NCBI GenBank assembly: GCA_013332095.1
Contig: JABENI010000005.1
Location: forward strand, 1 to 37,856
Reading direction: 5' to 3'
DNA from: Candidatus Bathyoplasma sp. NZ
GTDB lineage: Bacteria > Bacillota_I > Bacilli_A > MAG-NZ
Length of the DNA: 37,856 nt
In this document: positions 1 to 33,645 of the stretch, piece by piece
Position numbering within the stretch: the first letter of the stretch is position 1
Layout of the letters: each line of letters starts with the position of its first letter
Notes under the pieces: generated by a model
The model's input: only the letters and a program-made list of their open reading frames with translations
What the model was told of the DNA's origin: nothing
Database searches by the model: none
Program-made: the position numbers and the translations under genes

Positions 1-1
1 A

Positions 2-2200
2 GCACCAGAATTAACAACAGTAACAATAGAAAGTAGCAGTAATACAGAATTTGCAAAATTAGGAGATATAATTACCTTATCAATAACATCAGATGAACCT
101 TTAAAAGATGCCCCAATGGTTAGTTTTGATGGAGAACCTGCAGAATCAGCAATATTAGAAGCAGGTAATAGTTACAAAATAACGTATACAGTAGATGCAG
201 ATACTGATGAACAAGTATTAGTATTTACGATAAACTTTGTTGATGAAGCAGGAAACGATGGTGCGGAAGTAACAGCAATAACAGAAGGAAATGGAGTAAC
301 AGTAGACAGAACAGCACCAACATTACCGACAGTAACAATAGCAAGTAACAATACATTTGATACAGCATTTGCAAAAGCAGGAGATATAATTACGTTAACA
401 ATAATAGCTAGTGAAGACATCCAAGAACCATTAGTAACAATAGCAGGACAACCAGCAACAGTTTTAGGAAGTGGGATGAATTATACTGCAAAATATACAG
501 TAGCAGCAGAAACTCCAGAAGGAGTAGTAGCAGGAATTACCATAACATATGCAGATTTAGCAGGAAACGATGGTACTCCAGTAACAGAAACAAAAGATGA
601 AAGTACAGTAACAGTAGATACAATAGAACCAACAGTATTAGGACGCTCAATGATATATGGACAAACGTATAAGATAGTTGGAGATGAAAAATTTGTAAAA
701 TATTCAGTAGATGGTGGAGAATGGGTAGTAATGTTTAAAGGTGATGATTATGTAAAAGAGTACTTAATTGATTTACATACCGAAGGAGACTACGAAATTA
801 GAATAATGGATATAGCAGGAAATGAATCTATTAACCCTAAACAAGTAAACTATTCTAAACCGAATGTGGCAAAGACACCAGTAATAAACCTTAAAGGACG
901 AGCAACAGAAAGAGTAGTAGTAGGAAGTGAATTTAATGATCCAGGCTTCGAGGCATTAGATGAAGATGGAATAAATTTAGATATCAGAGTAACACAAGTA
1001 ACTGATTTAGATACTACTGTAGTAGGTACATACTTAATATCATATACAGTAACTAATGATGATGGAGTAACAGTAACTGTGGATAGATCAGTAGTAGTAT
1101 ATAATCCAACAGCAGGTAACCCAGGATCAGGTTCAGGATCAAACCCACCAGTAGATGTAGATAAAGCAGAAATGACATTAAAAGGAAGTTCACCACTGTA
1201 TTTAAGTGTTGGTGATGAGTATGTTGAATATGGAGTAACTGTAGAAAATGCTGAAAACTATTCAGAGGTAATAATTACTGAAGAAATAAATACAAATATT
1301 GGAGGAACTTATAAAGTAAAATATTCAGTATCCGATGATGATAACAAGAATAGCATTATAGAAAGAATAGTAATAGTAACAGCGATTTCAAGTGTAGAAA
1401 TAGAAGTGGATATAGCAAATGGATTTGAAATATTTAAGGTGGATTTAAGTTCAGCAATATTAACATTAGCAGATAGTGAAATAACATACGTAGTATCAGA
1501 TACAATACCAAGTGTAGACAGTGATTGGCAAGCGATAGTGAATAATAAAATAAATCTATCACTTATTACAGAACAAATGAGTTTATACGCATTAGTACGT
1601 AACGGTGATTCATATGAAATAGTAGAATTAACTGATTTGAATCCATATGAAGAAGTATCACTAGAAGATGAAACAAAAATTATCCATAGAGTAAACGGAA
1701 AAAAAAGCACATTAGCAGATGCAACAGAAGATAACAGTTGGTTATATGATAATGAAATAGTTAAAATATATAAAAAAGGTGATAACACAGTAGTAGAATT
1801 TGAGAATAGTGATCAACAACAAATAGAAAAAATAAAAGTATACTACAAAATAGTTAAAGCTACAACACCATCAAGTCTAAGTTTAATTCCAATTGTAAAT
1901 GCGACACCTCCATCACCTACAAGTAAATTGAAGTTAATAGAATTAGATAAGGGAGAAAAAATAGCATTAGAAATTGGAGCAGATGAAATATTAGAATACT
2001 CAGTAAAATCTATTAATGATGATGAAACTACAGATACATCACAAAAGTATAAAATTGAATTAGATGAAAATGGAAAAATAGTAGTTGATACAGTGTTGCC
2101 AAAAACAACTAATACTACAATGATAATAACAATAGTAGTAGCAGTGGTAGGAGTAATAGCATTAGGATATTTAGTAATGAAGAGAAAAAAAACTGCATAA
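2..2200 (+). CDS. C-terminal part of a large Ig-repeat cell-surface protein (5' end outside window)
   Basis: The reading frame is open from the first bases, so the start lies upstream of the window. The visible part begins with at least two bacterial Ig-like modules of about 95 residues, each opening with a 'TVTI-(A/E)S-(S/N)N' strand, containing 'GDIITL' and ending with 'DLAGNDG'. A 'GDEKFVKYSVDGGEW' module follows, then two DUF5011-like domains (starting 'INLKGRA' and 'MTLKGSS') separated by a Gly/Ser/Pro linker near 1120-1150. A unique C-terminal region comes last. The tail is LPKTT (2096-2110), a hydrophobic helix and a basic RKKTA end. This resembles an LPXTG sorting signal with Thr in place of Gly, so the protein is probably wall- or membrane-anchored and may be an adhesin. 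Two decayed paralogues follow downstream. The Ig/DUF5011 architecture is clear; the ligand and true function are unknown. Confidence 0.85.
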   Translation, partial: APELTTVTIESSSNTEFAKLGDIITLSITSDEPLKDAPMVSFDGEPAESAILEAGNSYKITYTVDADTDEQVLVFTINFVDEAGNDGAEVTAITEGNGVTVDRTAPTLPTVTIASNNTFDTAFAKAGDIITLTIIASEDIQEPLVTIAGQPATVLGSGMNYTAKYTVAAETPEGVVAGITITYADLAGNDGTPVTETKDESTVTVDTIEPTVLGRSMIYGQTYKIVGDEKFVKYSVDGGEWVVMFKGDDYVKEYLIDLHTEGDYEIRIMDIAGNESINPKQVNYSKPNVAKTPVINLKGRATERVVVGSEFNDPGFEALDEDGINLDIRVTQVTDLDTTVVGTYLISYTVTNDDGVTVTVDRSVVVYNPTAGNPGSGSGSNPPVDVDKAEMTLKGSSPLYLSVGDEYVEYGVTVENAENYSEVIITEEINTNIGGTYKVKYSVSDDDNKNSIIERIVIVTAISSVEIEVDIANGFEIFKVDLSSAILTLADSEITYVVSDTIPSVDSDWQAIVNNKINLSLITEQMSLYALVRNGDSYEIVELTDLNPYEEVSLEDETKIIHRVNGKKSTLADATEDNSWLYDNEIVKIYKKGDNTVVEFENSDQQQIEKIKVYYKIVKATTPSSLSLIPIVNATPPSPTSKLKLIELDKGEKIALEIGADEILEYSVKSINDDETTDTSQKYKIELDENGKIVVDTVLPKTTNTTMIITIVVAVVGVIALGYLVMKRKKTA

Positions 2201-2212
2201 TTTAAATAAAAG

Positions 2213-2240
2213 GGTTGCTTGTTAGCAGCCTTTTTTTTTT
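2213..2240 (+). terminator. Rho-independent terminator of the surface-protein gene
   Basis: A 7-bp stem (GGTTGCT / AGCAGCC, one G-T pair) with a TGTT loop is followed by ten T residues, 13 bases after the stop codon. Confidence 0.9.
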
Positions 2241-2598
2241 GAAAAAAATATATTTTGAGAAAAGAATAATATATTTAAAACTAGAAAATAAGCACTGAAC
2301 AGGAAGATTGTAGGATTAATATAACAGAAAAACATAAATTTCTAAGTTAGTTATTAAAATTTTTTCTAAAGCAACTGACTATTAAACCAATGTTGTGATG
2401 AACGACGTTTTAAATAGAGCTATTGGAGTTAAGAAATAAAATATAACAAATAAAATTATTATAGAATTTCTAAATAGATTTCGGTATCTGAAGTCCAAGA
2501 CAGTCTAATTGTACTATAACTGAAATTAATGATATTAAGAATAAAGTAGAAAATATATACGATATAAAAATAAAACAAAAATAAAGCAAAGGAATACA
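2241..2598. other. Gene-free A+T-rich spacer
   Basis: I see no convincing open frame, RNA or repeat here. The stretch separates the intact surface-protein gene from the first decayed copy and may itself be eroded coding sequence, but nothing can be aligned by eye. Confidence 0.4.
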
Positions 2599-3470
2599 AT
2601 GAAAGGAAGAAAAAAGTTTAAAAAAACCATGTACTTATCAATGATAATAATATTAACAACAGTGTGATTGTAATATCTATATTTTTAGAAAAAAAAGGTG
2701 AATGCAACAATTAGTAGTCGTTATCTTTCATGCATCTGATGGAAGGTATACGGTAAATTTAAATAGTGGAAAGTACTTAAATATAAAGTTGGTGAAGAGA
2801 TTAAACAACTTTCTTAAATTATAGTCAACATCAATTATAATTTTTAAAACACTGAGTTGAATTAATTAAAAGCAACGGATATCAGGGAAATAGTTTTACT
2901 GAAACATAATAAAGATAGAACAGCACTGACATTATCAATAGCAAGACAAACTATTACATTAACTGAAAATGACACCCATATTCTCACTTACAAGGTCGTA
3001 TTAGAAATTCGAAATTAATGGCAAGAATTAACACAAGCTATGCTGATGAAGCAGGAAATGTTGAAGTAGGAGAATAAGCAGTAGATAATGGAACTATTGA
3101 GATCTATTTTAAGGCATCGCAATATTAAATGAAGCTAAGTGGCATTTGTAACATATTAGGCGATGAAGAATTTAAAAAATATTCATAGAGAAAAAGTAAT
3201 TTGGATAGAAATGAATCAGCAGGCGAAACCTTCTTATTGGTCAACATTCTGAAAAAGTGATAAAATTAAAATAAAGGATAAAACAAAGAGATATTTCTAA
3301 TAATATTAAAATAGTAAGATGTCATAGAAAAATTGTGTTGTATAAATGCCATAAATTTGAAAGGAACAACAACTATAAAAACATTAGCAGATGCTTCTTG
3401 ATACTAGGAATTAGGAAAATGTTTAAGGCACATACAGTAATCAATGTTGGTGAGGAAATAGTAAATGGAA
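2599..3470 (+). pseudogene. Heavily eroded paralogue of the Ig-repeat surface protein
   Basis: A plausible ribosome binding site (AAAGGA) precedes ATG 2599. The frame encodes a basic start and a hydrophobic run (MKGRKKFKK then YLSMIIILTTV), which looks like a signal peptide, and then hits TGA. Further on, in shifting frames, family fragments remain: 'YADEAGN' near 3040, 'GDEEFKKYS' near 3160 ending in a stop, and 'INLKGTT' near 3355, which matches the DUF5011 start of the intact gene. Stops and frameshifts are too many for sequencing error. The copy ends before the C-terminal region, at a terminator. It is best read as a dead, internally deleted paralogue. Confidence 0.7.
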
Positions 3471-3472
3471 AC

Positions 3473-3502
3473 AAAAAAAGTCTATTATAATAGACTTTTT
3501 TT
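3473..3502 (+). terminator. Strong, possibly bidirectional terminator after the eroded copy
   Basis: A perfect 8-bp inverted repeat (AGTCTATT / AATAGACT) is flanked by seven A on the left and seven T on the right, so it could work on both strands. It has survived although the gene before it is dead. Confidence 0.8.
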
Positions 3503-3746
3503 ATCTGTGTAAAATATTTCTTTTATTTAAAAATATTTTAAAAAAATGAAATTAGATTTATACAGAAATAATTAATAAAATTCAGAAAGAGATTAATTTG
3601 TCCACAAAGAAACAAAAAAATATGCAATAAAAATTGTAATATTTAACGGATTAACTTACTACTGAAATATTTCGTAGGTTTTGAATTTTCTCTATGCTAG
3701 AATGATAGCGAAAGTAAATAAAAATAAATTAATAGGAGTGGATAGA

Positions 3747-6700
3747 TTGAAAGTTTACAAAAAATTTTTTAAAAAAATTACTATTTAATGATGTTAATCG
3801 TTTTAATGGTATTGGTAATATTAAATCTTTTAGAAAATGAAATAAACGCTCTCGAAATTACTGGTATGACCTATGTTAATGGTAATAACTAATAACTACG
3901 GATACTAATTTTATTGAATATAGGATCAACGGTGGTAGTTATATAAATGTTGGAATTGCAACAAATAATAACACTAATAACAGGAGAAAATACCTTAATT
4001 GTAAAAGATTGAACAGGAACCACCTCAATTGTGAAACAATAACAGTTGATCAAACTGCGCCAATTATAATAAGCGAAGCAAGCATTCAAAATACAACTAG
4101 TTATAAAGCAGTTGCAGATGAAAAATTCAGCAGTTATAGTACGGATAACGGTATAACTTGGGCAACAATTGTTCCATCTACAAATTTTTTTATTAATGGA
4201 CTTAGTGTAGGAACTTATAGGGTAAAAGTAAAAGATCAAGCAGGAAAGATATCTGTTGAATCATTAATTGTAAAAATTGAGCAGACAGTACCGCTAATAA
4301 CTAGTTCAGCAAGCAGACAAATGGCTACAAGTTATACAATTACTACAGATGAACAAATCTTTAGAGGATAGTTTAGATGGTGGTCTTAGTTGGCTAAAAA
4401 TTACTCCTACAACAAATTATACAATTATTGATTTAAGGAAAAATATTTATTAGATAAAAGTAAAAGATGTAACTGAAAATATATCATTAGAGGTAACAGT
4501 AAAAGTCGATCAAACTGCCTCAACATTAATCAGTTTAAAAACTGTACAAAATACAACTGATTACCGACTAACTGCAAATGAAAAAATTAAAGAATATAGT
4601 AAAGATAATGGTCTTACTTGGATAGCAATTATACCGGATACAACTTATCCAATAAATGACTTAGTTGTTGGTAATAACTATATAAAAGTGAAAGATATTG
4701 CTGATAATACATCGGAAGCCATAACGATAACGGTTGACCAAACAGTACCAATTATAACAAGTTTATCAAAAACACAAAATACAGTTAGTTATACAATAAG
4801 TGGAAATAAGGAAATTAAAGAGTATAGTCGAGATGACGGAAAAACTTGGACCGTAATTAATCCAACGATCAGTTATACTATGACGGGGCTAAGTGTGTGG
4901 TGCTCATCATATAAAAATAAAAGATGTAGCAGGAAACGTATCCACTACATCAGTAACAATAGCCGTAGACCAAACACCACCTACGATAAAAAGTTCATCA
5001 AAGACACAATACTCTACTAGCTATACAGTAACAACAGATGAAAAAATTAAAGAATACATTAAGGATAATGGTTATACTTGGATTACAATTGAACCAGAGA
5101 TGAGTTTTACGATTGATGATTTAAGTATAGGAAGAAATAATATAAAAGGAAAAGATATAGCAGGCAATCCATCAATTACAGGAGTAGTGGTGACAATTGA
5201 TCAAACAGCACCTACGATAATAGCCGAAATAACAAGCAGTAACATTAATAGTGAGCGAGCCGAATTAGGAGATACAATTACCTTAACTTTAATTGCCAGT
5301 GAAGAATTAGTAAACGCTCCCGTTGTTACGATAATCGGAAATGAAGTGACAATGATTAGAAGGGGAATTAATTATGTTGCAACGTATACGGTAACGGAAA
5401 ATGATATTAATGGAAATATAAAGATTAATGTAAGTAATTACAGTGATTTGGCCGGAAATGCTGGTCTAGATTTGATCAATGTAGAAGTAGGAAACGTTGT
5501 AATCAGAGAAGAAATACCGACATTAACAGTGGAAACAGCAAGTAATAATATTAATGAAAGATATGCAAATTTAAGCGACACAATTGTGCTGACGATAACG
5601 GTAAGTGAGATGTTAGTAAGTGAACCCACCGTTACAGTTGCAGAAAAAAGAGTAGTTGTCACAGGTGATGGCCTAAATTACACTGCTACCTATACCGTAT
5701 CTGAAACAGATGTTGATGGACCGATAAACATTAGGATAAGCGAAGATAGAGATATTGCAGGGAATAAGGGAATAGATTTAACAGTACCGTTAACAGACAC
5801 TGTGGTAATTGATAGAAGAGCGCCAACTGTATACTAAGTTCAGGAACTCCGTCAACGTTTAATTATCAATTGAGAGCCTCCTAAACTAATAGAAGGATAT
5901 TCAATAGATGGTGGGGTAACTTGGATTAATTTAAATTCAGCGGTTGCTGAAGTAACAATTTCGATAAATTCACATAATCTATATCAAATCCAAGTGAAAG
6001 ATTTAGCAGGAAATATTTCAGAAACTAAATCTGTCAAATATTATAACTGAAGAACTGTTTTAAGACCGACCATTGAAATTACCGGATTAGGAACAATTCA
6101 ACTAAAAGTAGGGACTCAATTTTTATGATTATGGGTTTGAAGCAGTAGATGGAGATGGAACAGATTTAAATAGTAAAGTAGTGCTAACCAGTGATTTAGA
6201 TATTAACAAAATAGGAGAATATTTAATTACTTACACCGTAATAAATGGTGATGCAATAAAAAAAACAGTAGCTAGGTCGGTAATAGTGGTAGCAGAAAAA
6301 ATAACTAATTTAGAATTTTCTAAAATGCTCTTAAAAGGAAGCCATCCAATATATTTAAGGGCAGGAGATAAATATATTGAGTATGGAGTGTCAATAATTG
6401 ATGAAATAGAATATAGTGAAGTATCAACAAGTGGAACAGTTGAGGTAAATAAAACAGGAATGGATGAATTGACCTATTCTACTTTCGATTCAATCGGCAA
6501 AAAAAATAGTGTAGTTACAACAATAATAGTTAGTGAAAGAGAAGAAATTATTGAATTGGAAGTGAATTTAAATAATGGACTTGAGAAATTTATAGTGAGT
6601 GTAAGTTCACCGTTATTAGGACTAGTTGGAACAGAGATGTATTACTTAATAACTACTGAACAGCCAGTGATTAATGCTGAATGGAAAATTGTTCGAAACG

Positions 6701-7357
6701 TTATTAACTTACCGAATACTTTAGATGGAAATAATCTTTACATATTAGTCCGAAATGGTAATTCGGATGAAATTATAAAGTTGGATAACTTAAATCAATA
6801 TCAAGAAATAAAATATACTGATGAAAGAAAAATAACTTATAAAATAAATGGTAAAGAAACTAATTTAGAAAAAGCAATAAAAGCAACACAAAGCGAATGA
6901 ATATTTGATAAAGAACTTTTAAAAATGGATGAAGGAAAAGATAGTCACATTATTGAATTTGGAAATAATCAGCAGTATCAATTTGAAAAAGTACATATAC
7001 ACTACAGCGTTAGTAGAGAAATATTAAATTCACAATCCGGATTAATTCCAACTGTAAATACAGCAAATATACGAATAGTAGAATTAAAAAGTGGAGATAA
7101 ATTTACAGTACTATTAGAAAAAGGTGAGACTCTAGAATATAAAATGGAAATTTTAGATAATCAAAATAAAAAAATATCAACTTTTTACAAACTTACAACC
7201 GGAATAGGAGAAAGAATTACAATTGATACGGCCTTAGCAGTAATAAAAAACAATTATTTTACGTTGATAATGTTAGGTAGTAGGAATTATTTTTATTTCT
7301 GTAGGGGCGTATGGCTATTTAACTGTAAAAAATAGAAAAACCGCTAAAACTAAATAG
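3747..7357 (+). pseudogene. Frameshifted paralogue of the Ig-repeat surface protein
   Basis: AGGAGTGG stands before a TTG start (3747); the frame breaks after 13 codons, and a hydrophobic signal-like segment continues in another frame. About five modules of 76-77 residues follow, starting near 4045, 4276, 4505, 4733 and 4965. Each opens with '(V/I)DQT-(A/V)-P' and contains 'EYS-DNG-TW' and 'IKVKD-AGN'. Next come two longer Ig modules (5196-5830), then DUF5011-like and C-terminal regions (6060-7357) homologous to the intact gene at the window start. Breaks include a frameshift near 4362-4372, TAG 4451, a frameshift near 4895, a stop at 5837, shifts near 6050 and 6125, TGA 6898 and a shift near 7275. 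In the third frame the tail still reads as a membrane helix ending NRKTAKTK, stopping at 7357. The position matching LPKT reads LAVI. Confidence 0.85.
4045..5200 (+). repeat. Five tandem ~231-bp modules inside the third surface-protein copy
   Basis: Boundaries marked by the VDQT/IDQT codons lie near 4045, 4276, 4505, 4733, 4965 and 5196, giving spacings of 231, 229, 228, 232 and 231. The values that are not multiples of three mark indels that broke the frame. The modules are diverged, not recent identical duplications. Confidence 0.75.
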
Positions 7358-7367
7358 GATGATAATT

Positions 7368-7406
7368 CCTCTGTTCAATTATAAAATCAAACAGAGGATG
7401 AAATTT
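7368..7406 (+). terminator. Possible terminator after the surface-protein cluster
   Basis: An 8-bp perfect stem (CCTCTGTT / AACAGAGG) with a 14-base loop lies just after the end of the decayed gene. The T run after it is short and interrupted, so termination is likely but weaker than at the other sites. Confidence 0.5.
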
Positions 7407-7480
7407 TTAATCTAAAAAAAATATTAATTTTCACATTTTTCAACTGTCCATTAATATTTTTCGATGATTGGTTTTATTTA

Positions 7481-8086
7481 TTAAAAAGAGTGTATAACCG
7501 TTTCTAAAATATTGTATTCAAAGTTAGCATTAGTAAGTTTAGTAAACGTTTCAAGAAAACTGTCTAGACAATTTTTATCTACTAAATATAAAAATTTTAC
7601 ATCTTTTGTGTATTCGATATTTAATAATAAATAATCAATTTTATTTTTTATTAAATTGGCAATTGAGTAATTGACAGTAATTTCTACTTTGGTCATCTCT
7701 TTAACTGTAATTATTTCAGCTGTTTTTAAAGCGGAAGTTACACTTTGAGTATAAGCTCTTATAAGTCCACCGGTACCTAATTTGATACCACCAAAATATC
7801 TAGTCACAACAACCACAATATTAGATAAATTGTTCATCTTTAAAACATTTAACATCGGATTTCCAGCTGTACCACTAGGTTCTCCATCATCACTTGAGCG
7901 CATGGTATTTGAATTCAGACCAATTATTAAAGCAGAACAGTTATGACTTGCGTTGTAATGCTCTTTTTTTAAAGAATTAATAAATTCAATTGCTTGTTCA
8001 AAAGTATCAACACTTTTTAAACTACAAATAAATTTACTTTTTTCGATAATTATTTCATTTTTGATTTCATTTTTAATTGTTTTCAT
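7481..8086 (-). CDS. yigZ: YigZ/IMPACT family protein (UPF0029)
   Basis: About 201 residues, typical for bacterial YigZ. The N-terminal half holds the IMPACT signature: 'KSKFIC' near residue 18, 'A.HNCSA', 'SSDDGEPSGTAG' and 'TRYFGGIKLGTGGLIRAY'. The C-terminal half matches the ferredoxin-like domain of the family. Eukaryotic IMPACT regulates GCN2; the bacterial role is not settled, though nucleic-acid or translation-factor binding has been suggested. ATG 8086 is preferred over the in-frame GTG 8089 because GAGG lies six bases upstream of it. The gene is divergent from cca, and the two share a 57-bp promoter region. It looks intact and monocistronic. Confidence 0.9.
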   Translation of the reverse strand: MKTIKNEIKNEIIIEKSKFICSLKSVDTFEQAIEFINSLKKEHYNASHNCSALIIGLNSNTMRSSDDGEPSGTAGNPMLNVLKMNNLSNIVVVVTRYFGGIKLGTGGLIRAYTQSVTSALKTAEIITVKEMTKVEITVNYSIANLIKNKIDYLLLNIEYTKDVKFLYLVDKNCLDSFLETFTKLTNANFEYNILETVIHSF

Positions 8087-17205: not shown

Positions 17206-18321
17206 ATGGATATGAAATATAAAGTTAAAAATAATGAATTGATTTTATACTTAGATTACAATTCTGAATTTGCAAAAAGTTTTGACAAAGATTCGGAAAC
17301 CGGTAGTACAGATTTAAAAGAAAACATTCTTAAGTTAAGAAACAAGATTAACTTTAAAGGAAATGTGGTAAAAGTTGTTGTTGGTGGAGCTCTAATTACC
17401 ACATTATTAGTAGGGGCAAATAATTCTTTTCAAAAAGTCGATAATAATGCTTCACAGATCGATAGTAATCCCATTACGTTTGTGGAAAATCCATCAGAAA
17501 ATTTTGATGGTACTACTAAAAATTTAGGAGGATTTAATATTGGGGACAATGTAAATTCTGAAGTTGATGATACAACGAATTCAGGAGCTGGGAGCACAAC
17601 AAATACGGGAGTTGGGAGCACAACAAATCCGGGAGTTGAGAGCCCAACAAATACGGAAACTGAGAGCACAACGAATTCAGGAGCTGGTAGTACAACAAAT
17701 ACGGGAGTTGGGAGCACAACAAATACTGAAACTGAGAGCACAACAAATACGGAAGTTGAGAACCCAACAAACACTGAAACTGAAGCTAAAGAGGAGATTG
17801 ATACTAGAGCCGCATTGAACAAAGAAGTTTCAGATATGACAAATCAGAAATTATTAGGTCCATCATCGATCAAATACGGATATCAGATGGAAACACCTAA
17901 ATACATTGTAGTCCATAATACAGCGAATAATGCTAGTGCCGCTGGTGAAGTTAATTATTTACATTCTAGTGAAAATACTTCATATACTTCTTTTCATTTC
18001 GCCGTAGATGAAAAGGAAATTTGGCAAGCACTTCCTACAACGGTAACTGGTTGGCATGCTGGAGATGGTGGAGCAGAAGATTCACACAACGCAAATGCCA
18101 TCGGTGTCGAGATTGCTCGAAGTACATCAGATGATCTAGCTACAAGAGATCAAGCTATTGAAAATGCTGCTAAATTAGTTGCAAGTTTATTAATGGAATA
18201 TGATTTAGGAATAGAAGATATTGTAACTCATAAAGATGTTACTGGGAAACATTGCCCGCATGATATTTTTGACCGCTATGGTTATGAAAATTTTGAAGCA
18301 TTAATTGAAAGTCATATGTAA
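17206..18321 (+). CDS. Membrane-anchored N-acetylmuramoyl-L-alanine amidase (Amidase_2)
   Basis: 371 residues. A short cytoplasmic region is followed by one membrane helix (about residues 52-70), a low-complexity linker rich in Thr, Asn, Gly and Glu (about 117-195), and a C-terminal Amidase_2 domain (about 215-365). The zinc site fits the T7-lysozyme pattern: His237 in 'VVHNTA', His342 and Cys350 (seven residues apart), with Lys348 matching the catalytic Lys. 'FHFAVDEKEIWQ', 'GWHAGDGG' and 'IGVEIARS' are also family motifs. It should cut the amide bond between muramic acid and the stem peptide. No holin or phage gene is adjacent, so it looks like a chromosomal wall-remodelling enzyme, not a prophage lysin. 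AAGGAG stands before ATG 17206. Confidence 0.9.
   Translation: MDMKYKVKNNELILYLDYNSEFAKSFDKDSETGSTDLKENILKLRNKINFKGNVVKVVVGGALITTLLVGANNSFQKVDNNASQIDSNPITFVENPSENFDGTTKNLGGFNIGDNVNSEVDDTTNSGAGSTTNTGVGSTTNPGVESPTNTETESTTNSGAGSTTNTGVGSTTNTETESTTNTEVENPTNTETEAKEEIDTRAALNKEVSDMTNQKLLGPSSIKYGYQMETPKYIVVHNTANNASAAGEVNYLHSSENTSYTSFHFAVDEKEIWQALPTTVTGWHAGDGGAEDSHNANAIGVEIARSTSDDLATRDQAIENAAKLVASLLMEYDLGIEDIVTHKDVTGKHCPHDIFDRYGYENFEALIESHM
17554..17769 (+). repeat. Nine 24-bp tandem repeats coding for the amidase linker
   Basis: Units of 24 bases begin with AAT/AAC codons and encode an 8-residue repeat of the form N-x-G-x-G-S-T-T or N-x-E-x-E-S-T-T. The first unit (17554) is degenerate; those at 17602 and 17698 are identical. 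Whole units keep the frame, so copy-number change would alter only linker length. Confidence 0.85.
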
Positions 18322-24423: not shown

Positions 24424-24438
24424 AATATTGATATGAAA

Positions 24439-24767
24439 AAAAGGGGCTGTAAATAAATAGAATTTTATTCTATTTATTGCAGTTTTTTATTTATTTTCGT
24501 GAAAATTTAAAAATAAGCATAACTAAATAGCAAACAAGAGTTTGCTTTTTTAAAATATGAGGCATAATATCAGGATATTATTATATCGTTTCTTTTTAAT
24601 TTATTGTGTGCTTTCATTAAATTAAATCCAATACACACTAAATCCCACTCAATTTTAACTCTTTCCATTGAAGTTGATTTTATATCTTCTAAATTTAGAA
24701 TCTTCTTTTATAATACCAAATGCACCTTCTACTTGAATAGACCTTTGCATTCTCCTATTAATTCCTT
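24439..24767 (-). mobile_element. Inverted fragment of an IS1182-family element (right end only)
   Basis: On the minus strand this stretch matches the last ~315 bases of the element at 31806-33609, with about ten differences by eye. It holds the C-terminal codons of the transposase ('SIQVEGAFGIIKEDSKF' and 'VKIEWDLVCIGFNLMKAHNK') and the terminal AAAAGGGGCTGT. A 12-bp palindrome (AATAAATAGAAT) lies just inside the end. The similarity stops near 24767. It keeps two bases that the other copy has lost in the transposase frame, so it is not simply a younger copy of that element. Confidence 0.85.
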
Positions 24768-26652: not shown

Positions 26653-27795
26653 ATGTTTGAAAAAACAAGACCATACAACGATTTACCAAAACTAAGTAGT
26701 ATTAAAAATATTGAAAATAAAAAATTATTGAAAGCATGTATTGAGGCTACAGCTGAATTATCGACTTTAAATAGAGCATTAAAGACTTTGATAAATCCTA
26801 ATATTATATTAGATACTTTAGCGCTTCAAGAAGCAAAAGTATCTTCGGAAATTGAAAATATTGTCACAACTAATGATGATATATATAGAAGAATTGCATT
26901 TGATGAAAAAACCCCTGCGGCAAAAGAAGTTGTAGATTATAAAGATGCTTTATTTTTAGGAGTCGGTGAATTGCGTAGCAAAGATTTAATTTCGGCAGCG
27001 GATATTAATGAAATCAACATGCTAATAAATACAGGTAAAAAGGGATATAGAAAAAATTTAGCTGAAGGTTCAAACCATACACAAATCGGTACAACTGTTA
27101 ATGGAAAAATGGAAGAAGTATTATATACCCCACCACATGGCTTAGATATTATAAATGATTTAATTAAGGACTTATTGGGATTTATGTATTATTCTGATAA
27201 GTATGAGATTGATAATTTGATTAAGATTGCTATGGCACATTATCAATTTGAGGCAATACATCCATTTTATGATGGTAATGGTAGAACAGGTAGAATACTT
27301 AATATTTTATTTTTAATGTATTATAAATATATTGATTATCCAGTGTTATATCTTAGTGGTTATATTGTGAGGAACAAGACCGAGTACTATGATTTGTTAA
27401 TGGGGGTAACTAAAGAAGGTGATTGGCATAAATTTATTGATTATATGCTAAATGGTATTATCGAAACTTCTAAAAAAACGGTCACTCTTATAGATAATAT
27501 AACAAAGTGCTATGATAATTGGAGTGAAAAATTAGTAAATAAAGAAATAAAGATAGCTAAAGAATTTGCAGATAGTAAAAAGGTATTAGAAATGACTTTT
27601 GAAAAAGTATATATAACCATCTCCGATTTAACTAATACTAGTGAGGAGTTTGCAGGTTTTTCAAGAGAGTCAGCAAGTAATTATCTGAAAAAATTAGTTA
27701 AATATGGACTACTTGAACAAGAAGAAAGTAAAGAAGATAAAAGAAAAAAAATATATAAAAATATTGAGTTGTTAAAAATTATAGAGAAAGACTAG
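26653..27795 (+). CDS. Fic-domain protein (predicted AMPylase) with N-terminal inhibitory helix and C-terminal winged helix
   Basis: 380 residues. Fic proteins usually transfer AMP from ATP to a target hydroxyl. The catalytic motif HPFYDGNGRTGR starts at His203 and is complete. The Fic_N region before it carries Ser64-x3-Glu68-Asn69, which fits the (S/T)xxxE(G/N) inhibitory motif, so this is a class II, self-inhibited Fic. The last ~90 residues look like a winged helix ('ITISDLTNTSEEFAGFSRESASNYLKKL'), suggesting DNA or partner binding. GAGGTG precedes ATG 26653. hsdM starts 10 bases after the stop, so the two are co-transcribed. Fic genes beside type I methylase genes have been seen elsewhere; the target here is unknown. 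Confidence 0.93.
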   Translation: MFEKTRPYNDLPKLSSIKNIENKKLLKACIEATAELSTLNRALKTLINPNIILDTLALQEAKVSSEIENIVTTNDDIYRRIAFDEKTPAAKEVVDYKDALFLGVGELRSKDLISAADINEINMLINTGKKGYRKNLAEGSNHTQIGTTVNGKMEEVLYTPPHGLDIINDLIKDLLGFMYYSDKYEIDNLIKIAMAHYQFEAIHPFYDGNGRTGRILNILFLMYYKYIDYPVLYLSGYIVRNKTEYYDLLMGVTKEGDWHKFIDYMLNGIIETSKKTVTLIDNITKCYDNWSEKLVNKEIKIAKEFADSKKVLEMTFEKVYITISDLTNTSEEFAGFSRESASNYLKKLVKYGLLEQEESKEDKRKKIYKNIELLKIIEKD

Positions 27796-27805
27796 AGGAC
27801 TAACT

Positions 27806-29689
27806 GTGAATGAAATAGAGTTTAGTAATAGTGTTAAGAAAAAAGCAGACTTAGTAATAAAAATTGCAGACCACTTAAGAGGAGCATATACTCCTGGAAA
27901 ATATGGGAGTATTATTATCCCGATGACAGTCATAAGAAGGTTTGATGCAATTATTGAGAGTAATTTTGATGAGTTACAAGATGCATATGATCTATTTAAA
28001 AAATCACAAAATGACAATATTGAATCAAATGTTTTTAATTACTGTGGTATCCCATTTTTTAATAAGAGCAAATTAACATTAAATAAAATACTAAATGATC
28101 CGGATAATCTTTTTATTAATTTTAAAAAATATTTAAAAAGTTTTTCAGATAATGTTTTTGAAATCATCGATAAACTTGGTTTTATAAATGAATTAGAGAC
28201 ACTTGAAAAGCATAATTTGTTATTTACAATTATAAAAGAATTTTGTAATGAAAAATTGAATTTTCAAAATTCAACAGATATTGAAATGGGGTATATCTTT
28301 GAAGATATTATTAGAAGATTTAAAGAAAACGCTGAAGCGGGGGACCATTACACACCTAGAGAAGTTATTGAGCTTTGTACTGATTTACTTTTATCGGATT
28401 ATGAAGATATGGATGTTAATGGAAAACTATTTAAGGTCTACGATGGGTGTTTTGGTACAGGTGGAATGCTATCGGTTAGTGAAAGTAAAATAGTTGAAAA
28501 ACGAAAACAAAAAGGTATAAAAAATACAACAATAAGACTTTATGGTCAGGATATTAATGATGAAGGATATGCGATATGTAAAGCCAATATGCTTATTAAA
28601 GGGCAAGATGTTGATAATATCAGACATCGTGATACTTTAACAGAAGATCAATTTAAAAAAGAAAAATTTAATTTTCTTATAACGAATTCTCCTTTTGGGG
28701 TTAATTGGAAAACTTCAAAGAAAAAAGTTTTAGATGAATGTAATAGTATGGATAGTAGATTCAAAAAAGGGTTACCTAAAATTAGTGATGGGCAATTATT
28801 ATTCTTACAAAACATGATAAGTAAACTTGATAAAAAAGGTCGTTTAGTTATTATTATGAATGGTTCTCCATTATTTAATGGTGATGCGGGAAGCGGTGAA
28901 AGTGAAATAAGAAAGTGGATTATAGAAAATGATTGGCTAGAAAGTATTGTTGCACTTCCTACAGACATGTTTTATAATACATCTATAGCAACTTATATAT
29001 GGGTTTTAACAGAAAAGAAATCTAGTTTAAGACAAGGAAAAGTACAGTTGATTGATGGTAGAAAGGAGTTTAAGCTACTGCAAAAATCACTTGGTAAAAA
29101 ACGTAAAGAATTACATCAAAATAATATTGATAAAATAAAAGACGTCTTTAAAGAATTTGCAAATTGTGAACAATCAAAAATCCTATCAAACAAAGAGTTA
29201 GGATATAATCAAATAACGTTAGAAATTATAAATGAAAATGAGGGTAAATTAGTTGAGGATGTTTATGATACATTAAAGGAAAAAGCTAGTTTTAAAAAGT
29301 TAAGCGATGATGATAAAATGGTAATCATAGATTCTTTAAGAGATTTAAATATAACTAAATATGATACAAAGCAGTCATTTGAAAAATGCATAGAAAAATC
29401 AATTAAAATTAATTTATCATCACAAATATTAAATGATATTATAAAATCTTGTTTAAGTATTGATAAAGAGAATATACCTCTAGCAGTTAATCAAAATAAA
29501 TACTTTGATGAAGAAGTAATGCCGCATGTTAAAAATTATTTTGTTGATGAAAAGAAGAGCAAAATTGGCTATGAAATTCCAATAACTAAATATTTTTATG
29601 AGTTTAAAGAACCAGAAAAGTTTGATACTTTATGGAGTGAAATAAAAGATTTGGAACATCAACTTTCAGAGTTACTTGATGAGGTGTAA
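27806..29689 (+). CDS. hsdM: Type I restriction-modification DNA methyltransferase subunit
   Basis: 627 residues. It should methylate adenine at N6 together with HsdS. The N-terminal helical HsdM_N domain is followed by 'GYIFEDIIRRF' and 'AGDHYTPREV'. Motif I is 'DGCFGTGG' from Asp213, and the catalytic motif IV reads 'TNSPFGVNW' with Asn294-Ser-Pro-Phe297 in place of the usual NPPF/NPPY. 'GSGESEIRKWIIENDWLESIVALP' is also typical. The C-terminal extension ends with 'KIGYEIPITKYFYEF', normal for the longer HsdM type. The GTG start has GAGG seven bases upstream. It is between fic and hsdS in one operon. It looks intact, but the Ser in motif IV makes activity worth testing. Confidence 0.94.
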   Translation: MNEIEFSNSVKKKADLVIKIADHLRGAYTPGKYGSIIIPMTVIRRFDAIIESNFDELQDAYDLFKKSQNDNIESNVFNYCGIPFFNKSKLTLNKILNDPDNLFINFKKYLKSFSDNVFEIIDKLGFINELETLEKHNLLFTIIKEFCNEKLNFQNSTDIEMGYIFEDIIRRFKENAEAGDHYTPREVIELCTDLLLSDYEDMDVNGKLFKVYDGCFGTGGMLSVSESKIVEKRKQKGIKNTTIRLYGQDINDEGYAICKANMLIKGQDVDNIRHRDTLTEDQFKKEKFNFLITNSPFGVNWKTSKKKVLDECNSMDSRFKKGLPKISDGQLLFLQNMISKLDKKGRLVIIMNGSPLFNGDAGSGESEIRKWIIENDWLESIVALPTDMFYNTSIATYIWVLTEKKSSLRQGKVQLIDGRKEFKLLQKSLGKKRKELHQNNIDKIKDVFKEFANCEQSKILSNKELGYNQITLEIINENEGKLVEDVYDTLKEKASFKKLSDDDKMVIIDSLRDLNITKYDTKQSFEKCIEKSIKINLSSQILNDIIKSCLSIDKENIPLAVNQNKYFDEEVMPHVKNYFVDEKKSKIGYEIPITKYFYEFKEPEKFDTLWSEIKDLEHQLSELLDEV

Positions 29690-29692
29690 CAT

Positions 29693-30955
29693 ATGAGTAA
29701 TGTAGAATGTCAACCGTATAAATCAAAGGATATAAAATTAAAATATATCGGAAAATTTTACTCCGGATTAGTTGGCAAATCTGGTGAAGATTTTCCAAAA
29801 GAAAGTAAAATAGGATACAGCCCATATGTGTCATTTACAAATATATTGAAAAATTTTGAAATTAATTATAACAGTTTGAATTTCGTTAAAGTAAATGAAA
29901 AACAAAATAAAGTTAAGAAAGATGATTTATTATTTCTTATGACCTCTGAAAATTATGAAAACCTAGGGAAAAGCGCGATTGTTATTAGAGATATAACGGA
30001 TCTGTATTTGAATAGTTTGTGTAAAGGATATAGATTAAGTGATGAGAATGTATTTCCCAGATATTTAGGCTATTTACTCAATTCTCATGCTATTAGAAGT
30101 AAAATTTCAATTAATGGAAAAGGATCTACCAGGATTAATTTAAATGTAAAAATTCTCTTAAATTTGAAGGTACAGTTACCTTTGTGTGTAGTACAAAAGA
30201 AAATATCAAATTATCTAGATAAAAAATTAGGACTATTGAGCGAAACAATAGAACTTAATAATAAAATAATTGATAAATTAGATAGAGCAAAACAGAGTTT
30301 GATAAATGAAACTTTAATGAAACTCAAAGATGTAGAAACGAAAAAATTTAAATATTTGTTTAATATAAGTAGCGGTTATCCTCTATCAAGAGATATGATA
30401 GTTGAGGAAGGAATAAGTTATTTACACTATCGTGACATTCATACAAAGTATTTATATAATTTGGATTTAAATAAAAATGAATTGCCTAAAGTTAGTGAAG
30501 AATATATTAATAAAAAGAAATCAGCAATTTTAAAAGAAGGGAATTTTATATTTTGCGATATTTCAGAAGATGTAGAAGGTAGTGGTAATTTTACTTATAT
30601 TGAAAATATGGGTGGAGAAATTGTTTTATCAGGACTACATACTTTAGTTGCAAAGGCAAGAAAAGATATATGTTGTAAATATTTTAGTTATTATTTTAGA
30701 TCTGAGTGTTTTAAAGATTTAATAGCAATAAATATTTATGGAGTGAAAGTATTAAGTTTAACACAAAAGTCTTTAAGCAGTATAAAAATTTCGTATCCAG
30801 ATATTGAAACTCAGGAAAAAATTGCTGAATTGCTAGATAGAAAATGTAAAAGCATCAATGATCAAATATCTTTAAGAAAGAGAGTAATCGAGAAAATGGA
30901 ATTATCAAAAAAATCACTAATCTATGAAGCAGTAACTGGTAAAATTAATATTTAA
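29693..30955 (+). CDS. hsdS: Type I restriction-modification specificity subunit
   Basis: 420 residues with the usual two-fold layout: target-recognition domain 1 (about 1-165), a coiled-coil conserved region ('YLDKKLGLLSETIELNNKIIDKL', about 170-215), domain 2 (about 220-375) and a second coiled coil ('LLDRKCKSINDQISLRKRVIEKM', about 378-415). Each domain reads half of a bipartite DNA target and recruits HsdM; the target itself cannot be read from sequence. ATG 29693 follows the hsdM stop by three bases, with GAGGTG inside the end of hsdM. Both halves look complete. The following hsdR gene is broken, so the complex probably only methylates. Confidence 0.94.
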   Translation: MSNVECQPYKSKDIKLKYIGKFYSGLVGKSGEDFPKESKIGYSPYVSFTNILKNFEINYNSLNFVKVNEKQNKVKKDDLLFLMTSENYENLGKSAIVIRDITDLYLNSLCKGYRLSDENVFPRYLGYLLNSHAIRSKISINGKGSTRINLNVKILLNLKVQLPLCVVQKKISNYLDKKLGLLSETIELNNKIIDKLDRAKQSLINETLMKLKDVETKKFKYLFNISSGYPLSRDMIVEEGISYLHYRDIHTKYLYNLDLNKNELPKVSEEYINKKKSAILKEGNFIFCDISEDVEGSGNFTYIENMGGEIVLSGLHTLVAKARKDICCKYFSYYFRSECFKDLIAINIYGVKVLSLTQKSLSSIKISYPDIETQEKIAELLDRKCKSINDQISLRKRVIEKMELSKKSLIYEAVTGKINI

Positions 30956-30995
30956 ATAGTGCAACTATTATAGCAAACGAAGGAGGCGAGTCCTT

Positions 30996-31518
30996 ATGAA
31001 ATTAGATGAGAAAAATTTCAATATAATGAGATACTCAAGCACTTAGTAAAAAAAAGTTGATACATAAAAAGAAGTATGAATGACTATTATAAAAAATATA
31101 CAATAGATAAAACTTCTTTGATTGAATTTTTAGAATCGACTCAAAAGGAAATGATAGAGGAATTTAAGAGTAATTGCGAAGACTTTTGGGAAAATGAAAT
31201 TGTTAAAGTAGTTTATGAAACTATTGAAAAGGATTTTTTAATACATATTTTAGGGCATGGAATTAGAGATTGGAGAGTTGGAAAAATATATTTACTTAAT
31301 AGTAAGTTTAACATTGAAAATGAAGAACAAAATGAATTATACAAGAAAAATATTTACAGTGTAATTGATGAACTCGAATATGAAGATAAAGAAAATAATA
31401 ATAAAGTTGATTTAGCCCTATTTTTGAAAGGACTTCCAGTAAGCATGTGTCTACAGGGGTAGATGCTCCCCCTAGAGTGATAATTGAGTTGATTATTAAT
31501 GTGGATGATTTTGTGTAA
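30996..31518 (+). pseudogene. hsdR: Truncated and frameshifted type I restriction subunit (hsdR remnant)
   Basis: GGAGG precedes ATG 30996. The first codons read MKLDEKNF, then the frame shifts and continues 'NEILKHLVKKS', TGA, 'YIKRSMNDYYKKYTIDK'. From 31076 an open frame covers the HsdR N-terminal domain: 'LIEFLESTQKEM', 'LIHILGHGIRDW', 'LYKKNIYSVIDELEY' and 'VDLALFLKGLP', where HsdR enzymes carry the first Asp of the D...ExK nuclease site. The sequence leaves the family just before ExK. From 31441 another frame reads 'STGVDAPPRVIIELI' and stops at 31518. This may be the helicase motif V region brought in by a large internal deletion, but that part is uncertain. Most of the nuclease site and the ATPase/translocase are gone, so no restriction is expected. 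Confidence 0.75.
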
Positions 31519-31805
31519 AATTTTATTAAATAGTACGGCTATAGGTGGTGTAAGCAATTGATAGAAAATTAATACTTCATGCAATTATAGTCATCTAAAG
31601 AAACTATGAAGTATTAGTATTTTATCAAACAAACTCTAAAGCAAAAAAAAGACCTATATAATTGAATAGTTTTTTTGTTAATTACTTGATTTACTATAGT
31701 AATACAATATATATGTCTGCTGCAGAGAAGTAATATTAGCACATTTACATGTTTGTTTGAAAGCCAATCATAAAAATAGTTATTAATATAAAGAGAAAAA
31801 TAAAC
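31519..31805. other. Spacer between the hsdR remnant and the IS element
   Basis: No gene is visible. An 11-bp perfect inverted repeat (TAATACTTCAT at 31570-31580, ATGAAGTATTA at 31606-31616, 25-base loop) is present without a clear T run. No copy of the IS terminal AAAAGGGGCTGT is found here, so the left IS end is either degenerate or lost. Confidence 0.4.
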
Positions 31806-31850
31806 ACCAAAAAAGCCGTTGGAACTTAAAACTCCAACGGCTTTTTTGGT
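31806..31850. terminator. 18-bp perfect hairpin at the left side of the IS
   Basis: ACCAAAAAAGCCGTTGGA and its exact complement flank a nine-base loop, with A and T runs making it a bidirectional terminator. It should block outside transcription into the transposase. The last base overlaps the TATAAT (31850-31855) that would drive the transposase. Confidence 0.85.
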
Positions 31851-31861
31851 ATAATATAACT

Positions 31862-33452
31862 ATGAACACAAATTTTATAAAACATAATTAGAACATATTT
31901 CAGTCAATTTTACCGATAGAAATTGGATTAATTATTCCAAAGGATTCGCTGGTTAGAACTTTTGATTACTTATTTCACCAAATAAATATGGAGGTAATTG
32001 TTGAAATAAGTGTTGCTAAATTGAGTAGACCAACACTTAATCAAGTAGTCTTATTAAAACTAGTTTTGGATGGTTTTATGACTGGAATTAGAACATCAAG
32101 AAAAATTAGTAAAGCTTGTATAAGAGAATATAAATTTTATGTACCTGCTAGGTGATTATAAAGCACCATCACATACAAGTATTAATAATTTTATTAAGAA
32201 ACTAGCAGGAAAGACTAGTATTCTTTTTGGTCGTTTAAACAAGCATATTATCAAACAATTTAATGTTAATTTAACAACAATATATATAGATGGAACTAAA
32301 TTTGAAGCTGATGCAAACAGATATTCTTTTGTGTGGCGTGGTAGAATTATGAGTTCTATTTTTAAGTTAGGTAAAAAAATAAATGAAAATATTAATTCAC
32401 TTAACGAGATTTACGGTGCATACGATATTAAAAATCCAGTGTGATACATTGAATATCCTGAAAATTATCAGAAAAATTTAAAATTTGATCATTATAGTGA
32501 GCATAGATTAATGAAAATGAGCAGAGTGTTGAAACGAATAGTTAAAATGTTAAAAACTATATTTTTCCATGGAAAAGGTAAGAGAAAAAACAAAATACAG
32601 AAAATGTTTGAATTAATGGATGAAGCGTATGTTAAGATGAAGGAAAACAATAAATATTTAAAAATTATCGGACCAAATAGAAATAGTTATGCAAAGACTG
32701 ATTACGATGCTACTTTTATGCATTTGAAAGATGATCATAGGCAAAATAGTCAATTAAAACCTGCATATAATATGCAAATTGCAGTTGCAGATGAATTTAT
32801 AGTAACTACTGATGTTTTCCAAGATAGAGCAGACTTTGTTACTTTTATTCCTTTAATTGAAAAACACGTGGATTTATATAATCAATATCCTCTTAATCCT
32901 GTTGCTGATGCTGGATATGGAAGTTATCATACTTATACATATTGTAAGACGTACGGAATGAATATTGCAATGAAATTTGGAATGTATAAACAAAAACGAA
33001 GTAAAAAATATAAGAAAAATTTGTTTCACAAAGATAACTATGAGGTTAATGAAAGGAATAATCCTGTTTGTCCAAATGGTGTAGAATTTATTTATAAGTA
33101 TACTCGTAAAAATAAAAACTCAAAATTTGGAAGTGAAAGTAAAATATATAAATCAACTGGCTGTAGCGGATGTATGTTGAGCGAGTCTTGTGGTAACAAA
33201 TCTGGAAATGATAAAAGAATTTCTTTTAATGAGCAACTAGATGAATACCAAAAAGAAGCTATAGAATTTCTTGATACCGAAGAAGGAATTAATATGAGAA
33301 TGCAAGGTCTATTCAAGTAGAAGGTGCATTTGGTATTATAAAAGAAGATTCTAAATTTAGAAGATATAAAATCAACTTCAGTGGAAAGAGTTAAAATTGA
33401 GTGGGATTTAGTGTGTATTGGATTTAATTTAATGAAAGCCACAATAAATTAA
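31862..33452 (+). pseudogene. IS1182-family transposase, disrupted
   Basis: ATG 31862 begins MNTNFIKHN, hits TAG, then continues in the same frame with 'FQSILPIEIGLIIPKDSLVR', typical for the N terminus. A frameshift near 32150 leads to 32139-32444, which holds 'IYIDGTKFEADANRYSFVW', a hallmark of IS1182 transposases. A TGA and a shift follow, then a long frame (32511-33320) with 'VADAGYGSYHTY' and a Cys-rich 'CSGCMLSESCGN'. One lost base near 33305 breaks the last part ('SIQVEGAFGII'). At least four lesions are present, so it is inactive. Confidence 0.88.
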
Positions 33453-33645
33453 AAAGAAACGATATAATAATATCCTGATATTATGCCTCATATTTTAAAA
33501 AAGCAAACTCTTGTTTGTTTTTTAGTCATGCTTGTTTTTAAATTTTCACGAAAATAAAAAAGAAACTGCAATAAATAGAATAAAATTCTATTTATTTACA
33601 GCCCCTTTTAATTTTTTGGAATGTTAAAATAAACCAAAAATAAGT

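Follow-up and report, generated by a model that had tools for sequence, protein, structure and literature searches.

One open and two decayed members of a large Ig-repeat surface-protein family in a Mycoplasmatota relative

Is a head-to-tail run of one open and two broken surface-protein genes a store of donor sequence, or the ordinary turnover of a large family? The earlier note offered both possibilities for positions 1-7357 of the window, the whole stretch of 37,856 nts analysed here. The window is the entire contig 10 of a 44-contig genome of Candidatus Bathyoplasma sp. NZ (1.82 Mb, 97% complete, contamination estimate 0.19%). We name the three members A, B and C, and write other contigs and the family members on them as C with a number. 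The features of the locus are as follows.

2..2200, + strand: gene A, the 3' part of an Ig-repeat surface-protein gene, 732 codons in an open frame
2208..2235, + strand: terminator-like hairpin behind A, from a terminator scan
about 2323..2585, + strand: decayed 3' end of a ymdB-like gene immediately upstream of B, by DNA and tblastn similarity
2599..about 3470 (end approximate), + strand: pseudogene B, by DNA similarity of its head and tail to the family
3455..3520, no strand: inverted repeat between B and C, 76% complementary
3747..7357, + strand: pseudogene C, by matches to A and the C9 gene in several frames

As the earlier note stated, members of one family follow each other head to tail at different stages of erosion; all three lie on the + strand, A being open and B and C full of stops. 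The end of the stretch is also well placed, as position 7357 is the old stop of C; its start is only the contig edge. The first base of the contig cuts A, whose 5' end is missing and which begins before the contig, so that the description of A as intact holds for a frame open to its stop and not for the whole gene; judged by that frame, A is apparently a working copy as far as it is visible. The decay of the other two is borne out by their stops and frame changes. What does not stand is that the three are the same protein: A and C are old paralogues (35-37% identical in amino acids), and B is of another subtype. Nor is the whole stretch surface-protein DNA, as about 2323-2585 belongs to a ymdB-like gene.

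Gene A consists of PF16403 domains, a C-terminal region and a membrane helix. Its PF16403 match (Bact_surface_Ig-like, of which DUF5011 is presumably the old name) reaches 89.6 bits for a Pfam cut-off of 27, which makes A a member of that domain family, and the domain is also over the cut-off in a piece of C (6181-6900, 55.4 bits, cut-off 27) and in three other members scanned. A differs from known PF16403 proteins in the 266-aa region behind the domain, which has no Pfam match over the cut-off. Used as a query, this region matches 2 of 296 genomes of the class, namely its own and one borderline case (E 8.5e-4); the same short query has no match in Mycoplasmatota bacterium zrk6 (CP074575.1), a comparison genome placed in the same taxonomic family. 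The predicted structure of the last 452 aa is a poor model (mean pLDDT 49, pTM 0.32) made mostly of strands and the last helix, and the hydrophobic tail scores 2.82. A is not an LPXTG wall protein anchored by sortase: Gram_pos_anchor reaches 16.2 bits, below its cut-off of 20, and sortase PF04203 has no match in the draft genome of the window (a control search found sortase in 3 of 14).

In a comparison with 60 genomes, none of the others from the same genus as the window's, A has some match in 19, its own genome counted in; beyond its own genome and one zrk6 protein, the matches listed cover little sequence, almost always within the PF16403 Ig part. The zrk6 surface protein (CP074575.1; L031/L082) aligns with residues 285-730 of A, helix included, at 28-29%, and differs in that its genome has only 2 matches to A. 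Used as a query against genome contigs and viral contigs, A gave no match. Terminator-like sites in 1900-7600 number 4 where 1.2 are expected. The promoter scan finds 34 sites where 34.0 are expected by chance, a chance number that shows a promoter for none of A, B and C.

Pseudogene B is the most eroded of the three, each + frame having 27-30 stops in 290 codons; C is less so. The ATG of B is read directly from the sequence at 2599, its type-1 signal head (2564-2721) resembles several intact heads in DNA, and remnants of Ig repeats (about 2886-3063) and of a last domain (about 3056-3469) follow. These features point to a subtype other than that of A. Directly before B, the remnant of a gene that we take to be ymdB-like is 77% identical in DNA to an intact copy over 2346-2585, and tblastn finds it in two frames with stops inside (E 2.9e-15). 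The intact ORF sits on another contig (G000:C33:63243-64022), where its neighbours on contig 33 are presumably spoVS and miaB. The inverted repeat at 3455-3520 is possibly an old terminator; the terminator scan did not flag it. A type-1 gene much like B, heavily eroded but with its signal head still recognisable, is found at about 5600-6600 of L067 (C18:1-10000), just upstream of an open family gene.

Pseudogene C has a head, repeats of about 75 codons, Ig domains, a PF16403 remnant, a C-terminal domain and a helix, in pieces separated by several frame changes. Each frame has 92-122 stops over 1199 codons, with all three kinds of stop among the pieces, and the start is recognisable but reads TTG. 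C matches A at 6112-7251 (35% in amino acids, E 3e-66) and the intact C9 gene (L064:1690-5421:-, 1243 aa) at 5190-7332 (37-39%, E 5e-116); the match of its head to the C9 gene head is weak (29%, E 0.003). In DNA, A and C are about 60% alike. We compared the C-terminal domains of A, C9 and C over 343 codons. The differences at codon positions 1, 2 and 3 are 152/116/141 for A-C9, 155/130/150 for A-C and 149/126/158 for C9-C, so that at none of the three positions is C closer to A than to the C9 gene, and A and C, which differ about as much as A and C9, are not the same protein. A, B and C are not recent copies of one gene. Changes special to one copy are 64/52/71 in C, 67/42/54 in A and 61/38/62 in C9; these counts do not by themselves demonstrate that C lost constraint, and a fairly late death would fit them.

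The neighbouring genes, which we take to be yigZ, cca, yhaM and then a foldase-like gene on the opposite strand, occur in the same order in zrk6, where yigZ and cca are separated by what is presumably a degV-like gene. On the far side of yigZ, the 12 kb read in zrk6 hold an M23-like peptidase gene but no family member; the array is therefore either particular to the lineage of the window or lost in zrk6. Elsewhere in the window, an Amidase_2 protein (17206-18321) carries a low-complexity linker of Thr/Asn/Gly-rich repeats, its host genome being placed near Mycoplasmatota. A Fic/DOC family protein (26653-27795) lies just upstream of a type I restriction-modification locus (27806-33614) with hsdM and hsdS. 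Of HsdR, no more than a short N-terminal piece is recognisable after them (31076-31462, 24.7 bits, cut-off 25.1), followed by a broken insertion sequence with a DDE transposase (31801-33614), so that the restriction gene seems to have been lost. An end piece of this insertion sequence recurs in inverted orientation about 8.5 kb away (24439-24767 against 33283-33609, 97% identical), and related copies are found on C21, C33, C34 and C44.

The family itself is large. A census of the window and of 362 kb selected because they had matches (about 400 kb in all) finds 44 family ORFs of at least 300 aa, one of them a fragment of C. Together they cover 173,694 bp, or 9.5% of the genome, which is a lower bound. 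Members are many and diverged, in tandem and dispersed, and at different stages of decay, which is the pattern of birth-and-death evolution; several carry dead remnants of a neighbour just upstream. The suggestion of repeated gain and loss is supported by this large, partly tandem family with its many decayed remnants. Complete 3' ends are seen in 25 family ORFs, the fragment of C left out. Ten of them (A, C5, C7, C9, C22, C27, C29, C32, C33 and C38) end in a strongly hydrophobic stretch (2.3-3.0). The other 15, with no strongly hydrophobic stretch (at most 1.04), are all 12 of those with type-1 heads, as assigned by motifs, together with C42 and C44, whose heads are unseen, and C19, a broken member. 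Some intact members are mosaics. C5 resembles C37 as far as 2650 (92%), whereas from 2578 onwards it resembles C38 and C32 (90%), and a gene at the end of C34 has a C35-like front (82%), a middle like the second gene of C5 (88%) and an end like C21 (83%). A C13/C16 tract (96%) begins at the start codon, although a looser alignment extends some 190 bases upstream of it, and a C9/C7 tract ends about 9 bases past the stop. Outside family ORFs, a stretch of 926 bases (L061 5161-6086, L078 6825-7749) is 99% identical between two arrays and more alike than the surrounding genes.

Dead anchor-domain tails before other family genes may keep a trace of how the anchorless members arose. For 33 family heads, we took as many as 600 upstream bases each and aligned them with the stretch of A round its lysine codon at 1949. 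Eleven upstream stretches score at least 34 (shuffled maximum 24.4), all of them before type-1 heads and all dead, and at the lysine codon of A they read TAG in nine, TAA in one and TA plus a gap in one; at C16 the dead tail is present and the nonsense site missing. With a score of 28, the stretch before the type-1 gene on C9 comes twelfth; it reads AAA, being the end of the intact C9 gene itself. The remaining 21 are uninformative (score at most 22). The controls have no stop at this site, which is a lysine codon in A, C9 and C5, GAA in C38 and AGT in pseudogene C. Because C13/C41 and C3/C6 are close copies, the 11 tails are not all independent. On its simplest reading, the common nonsense site means that the anchor domain probably died once, and that units then spread with the fossil attached and copied along.

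Do B and C then act as donors? Exact matches of A with the decayed stretch reach 15 bases at most. No tract of at least 90% over at least 100 bases touches 1-7480 in comparison with the fetched stretches, and none appears there among the listed matches of a whole-genome DNA search; the only such tracts in the window are insertion-sequence pieces (24425-24767 and 31801-33614). We also tested 11 pairs among 11 aligned C-terminal domains (888 polymorphic sites, 1000 permutations each), using the longest identical run and the best segment, with p given in that order. The pairs A-C (0.51, 0.36), C9-C (0.095, 0.32), A-C9 (0.71, 0.094), C5-C (0.56, 0.22) and C38-C (0.52, 0.22) are negative, as is C7-C9 (0.068, 0.20), a pair nearly identical throughout. 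The positive pairs are C5-C38 (0.004, 0 of 1000), C5-C27 (0 of 1000 by both statistics), C22-C33 (0.002, 0 of 1000) and C29-C33 (0.004, 0.004), and C22-C29 is mixed (0.077, 0.028); positive results could be partly due to uneven constraint along the gene. Recombination thus appears to act within the family, and not visibly through B and C. Since it is clear among intact members elsewhere, old or short conversion from B or C may have occurred.

That B, C and similar remnants form a silent archive, donating segments to expressed copies by gene conversion for antigenic variation, is what the earlier note proposed with its donors. Head-to-tail relatives of a single surface family invite the comparison, as do the mosaics and near-identical tracts among other copies and a 173-base tract (91%) that links the inside of the C6 ORF to non-ORF DNA on C41. 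Nevertheless, we regard it as improbable at this locus, where neither the tracts nor the permutation tests support donation. Identity tracts of the kind expected between silent and expressed copies are absent for B and C (other decayed pieces are covered by the tract list only); their many stops would mostly damage a recipient; and, where silent cassettes lack a start region, B has a head that matches intact heads and C a recognisable start. In Mycoplasma synoviae, one promoter serves the single expressed vlhA haemagglutinin gene, which recruits pseudogene sequence (PMC2825196). That family is also one of many related surface-protein sequences, some in tandem and some incomplete (PMC2825196), and the likeness is one of organisation. 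Here, by contrast, many copies are open, B and C have retained heads of their own, and neither shows any sign of exchange.

Two further accounts question the material itself. A draft assembly or mixed strains could inflate part of the family size and the mosaics, with B and C poorly assembled. The genome is in 44 contigs, at least 30 contig ends (on 29 contigs, several with one end examined) fall inside family ORFs, and C13/C41 (96.8% over 3.2 kb) or C32/C38 (92.8% over 7.5 kb) might each represent a single place in two variant forms. This is nonetheless a slim prospect given the low contamination estimate, the presence of A, B and C on one contig and the modest DNA likeness of A and C. Exact 127-base ends common to C3, C6 and C42 suggest that the assembler worked with words of about that length; if so, the overlap at the C5 switch point, about 73 bases, is short for a mis-join. 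Similarity that continues across the breaks might also be taken to mean that B and C are functional through another code or programmed frameshifts. We reject this as scarcely credible in view of the mixture of all three stop kinds, the several frame changes, and sister ORFs of up to 3053 codons under table 11.

We favour the reading, with a probability of about 0.8, that the locus is a small cluster from an Ig-repeat surface-protein family, large and lineage-expanded, which evolves by birth and death in this relative of the Mycoplasmatota. It rests on the 44 ORFs, on C being equidistant to A and C9, on the lack of an A-C or C9-C conversion signal in an alignment that has positive pairs, on the position of B behind a dead ymdB-like end, on the common nonsense site and on zrk6 having no family member beyond yigZ. 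Against it, the changes of C are not clearly neutral by codon position and the 5' end of A is unseen. Under birth and death, copies would spread as units carrying a few hundred bases of upstream flank, B would have died before C, and neither would do anything as a donor. The proteins would lie outside the membrane, held by the C-terminal helix in the A and C9 type and only by an N-terminal segment in type 1, and may serve attachment or shielding. It is unlikely, if less so than donation from B and C, that the family is a live cassette system, with gene bodies swapped among intact copies, an early anchor death after which an anchorless population multiplied, and B and C as spent cassettes; the C5 and C34 mosaics, the C13/C16 and C9/C7 tracts and the dead anchor tails speak for it. 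Under the birth-and-death reading that we prefer, the stretch itself is ordinary decay within a remarkable family.

We found nothing on such an Ig-like surface-protein family in Izemoplasma or the related group among titles and the openings of abstracts. Here, a single surface-protein family takes up about a tenth of the genome of a bacterium outside the well-studied mycoplasmas, and readable fossils of how the copies move and die are retained. The common nonsense site suggests that the anchor was lost before the anchorless type spread, which is a testable order of events. Active exchange among the intact copies, if confirmed, would make the family another, independent case of coat variation.
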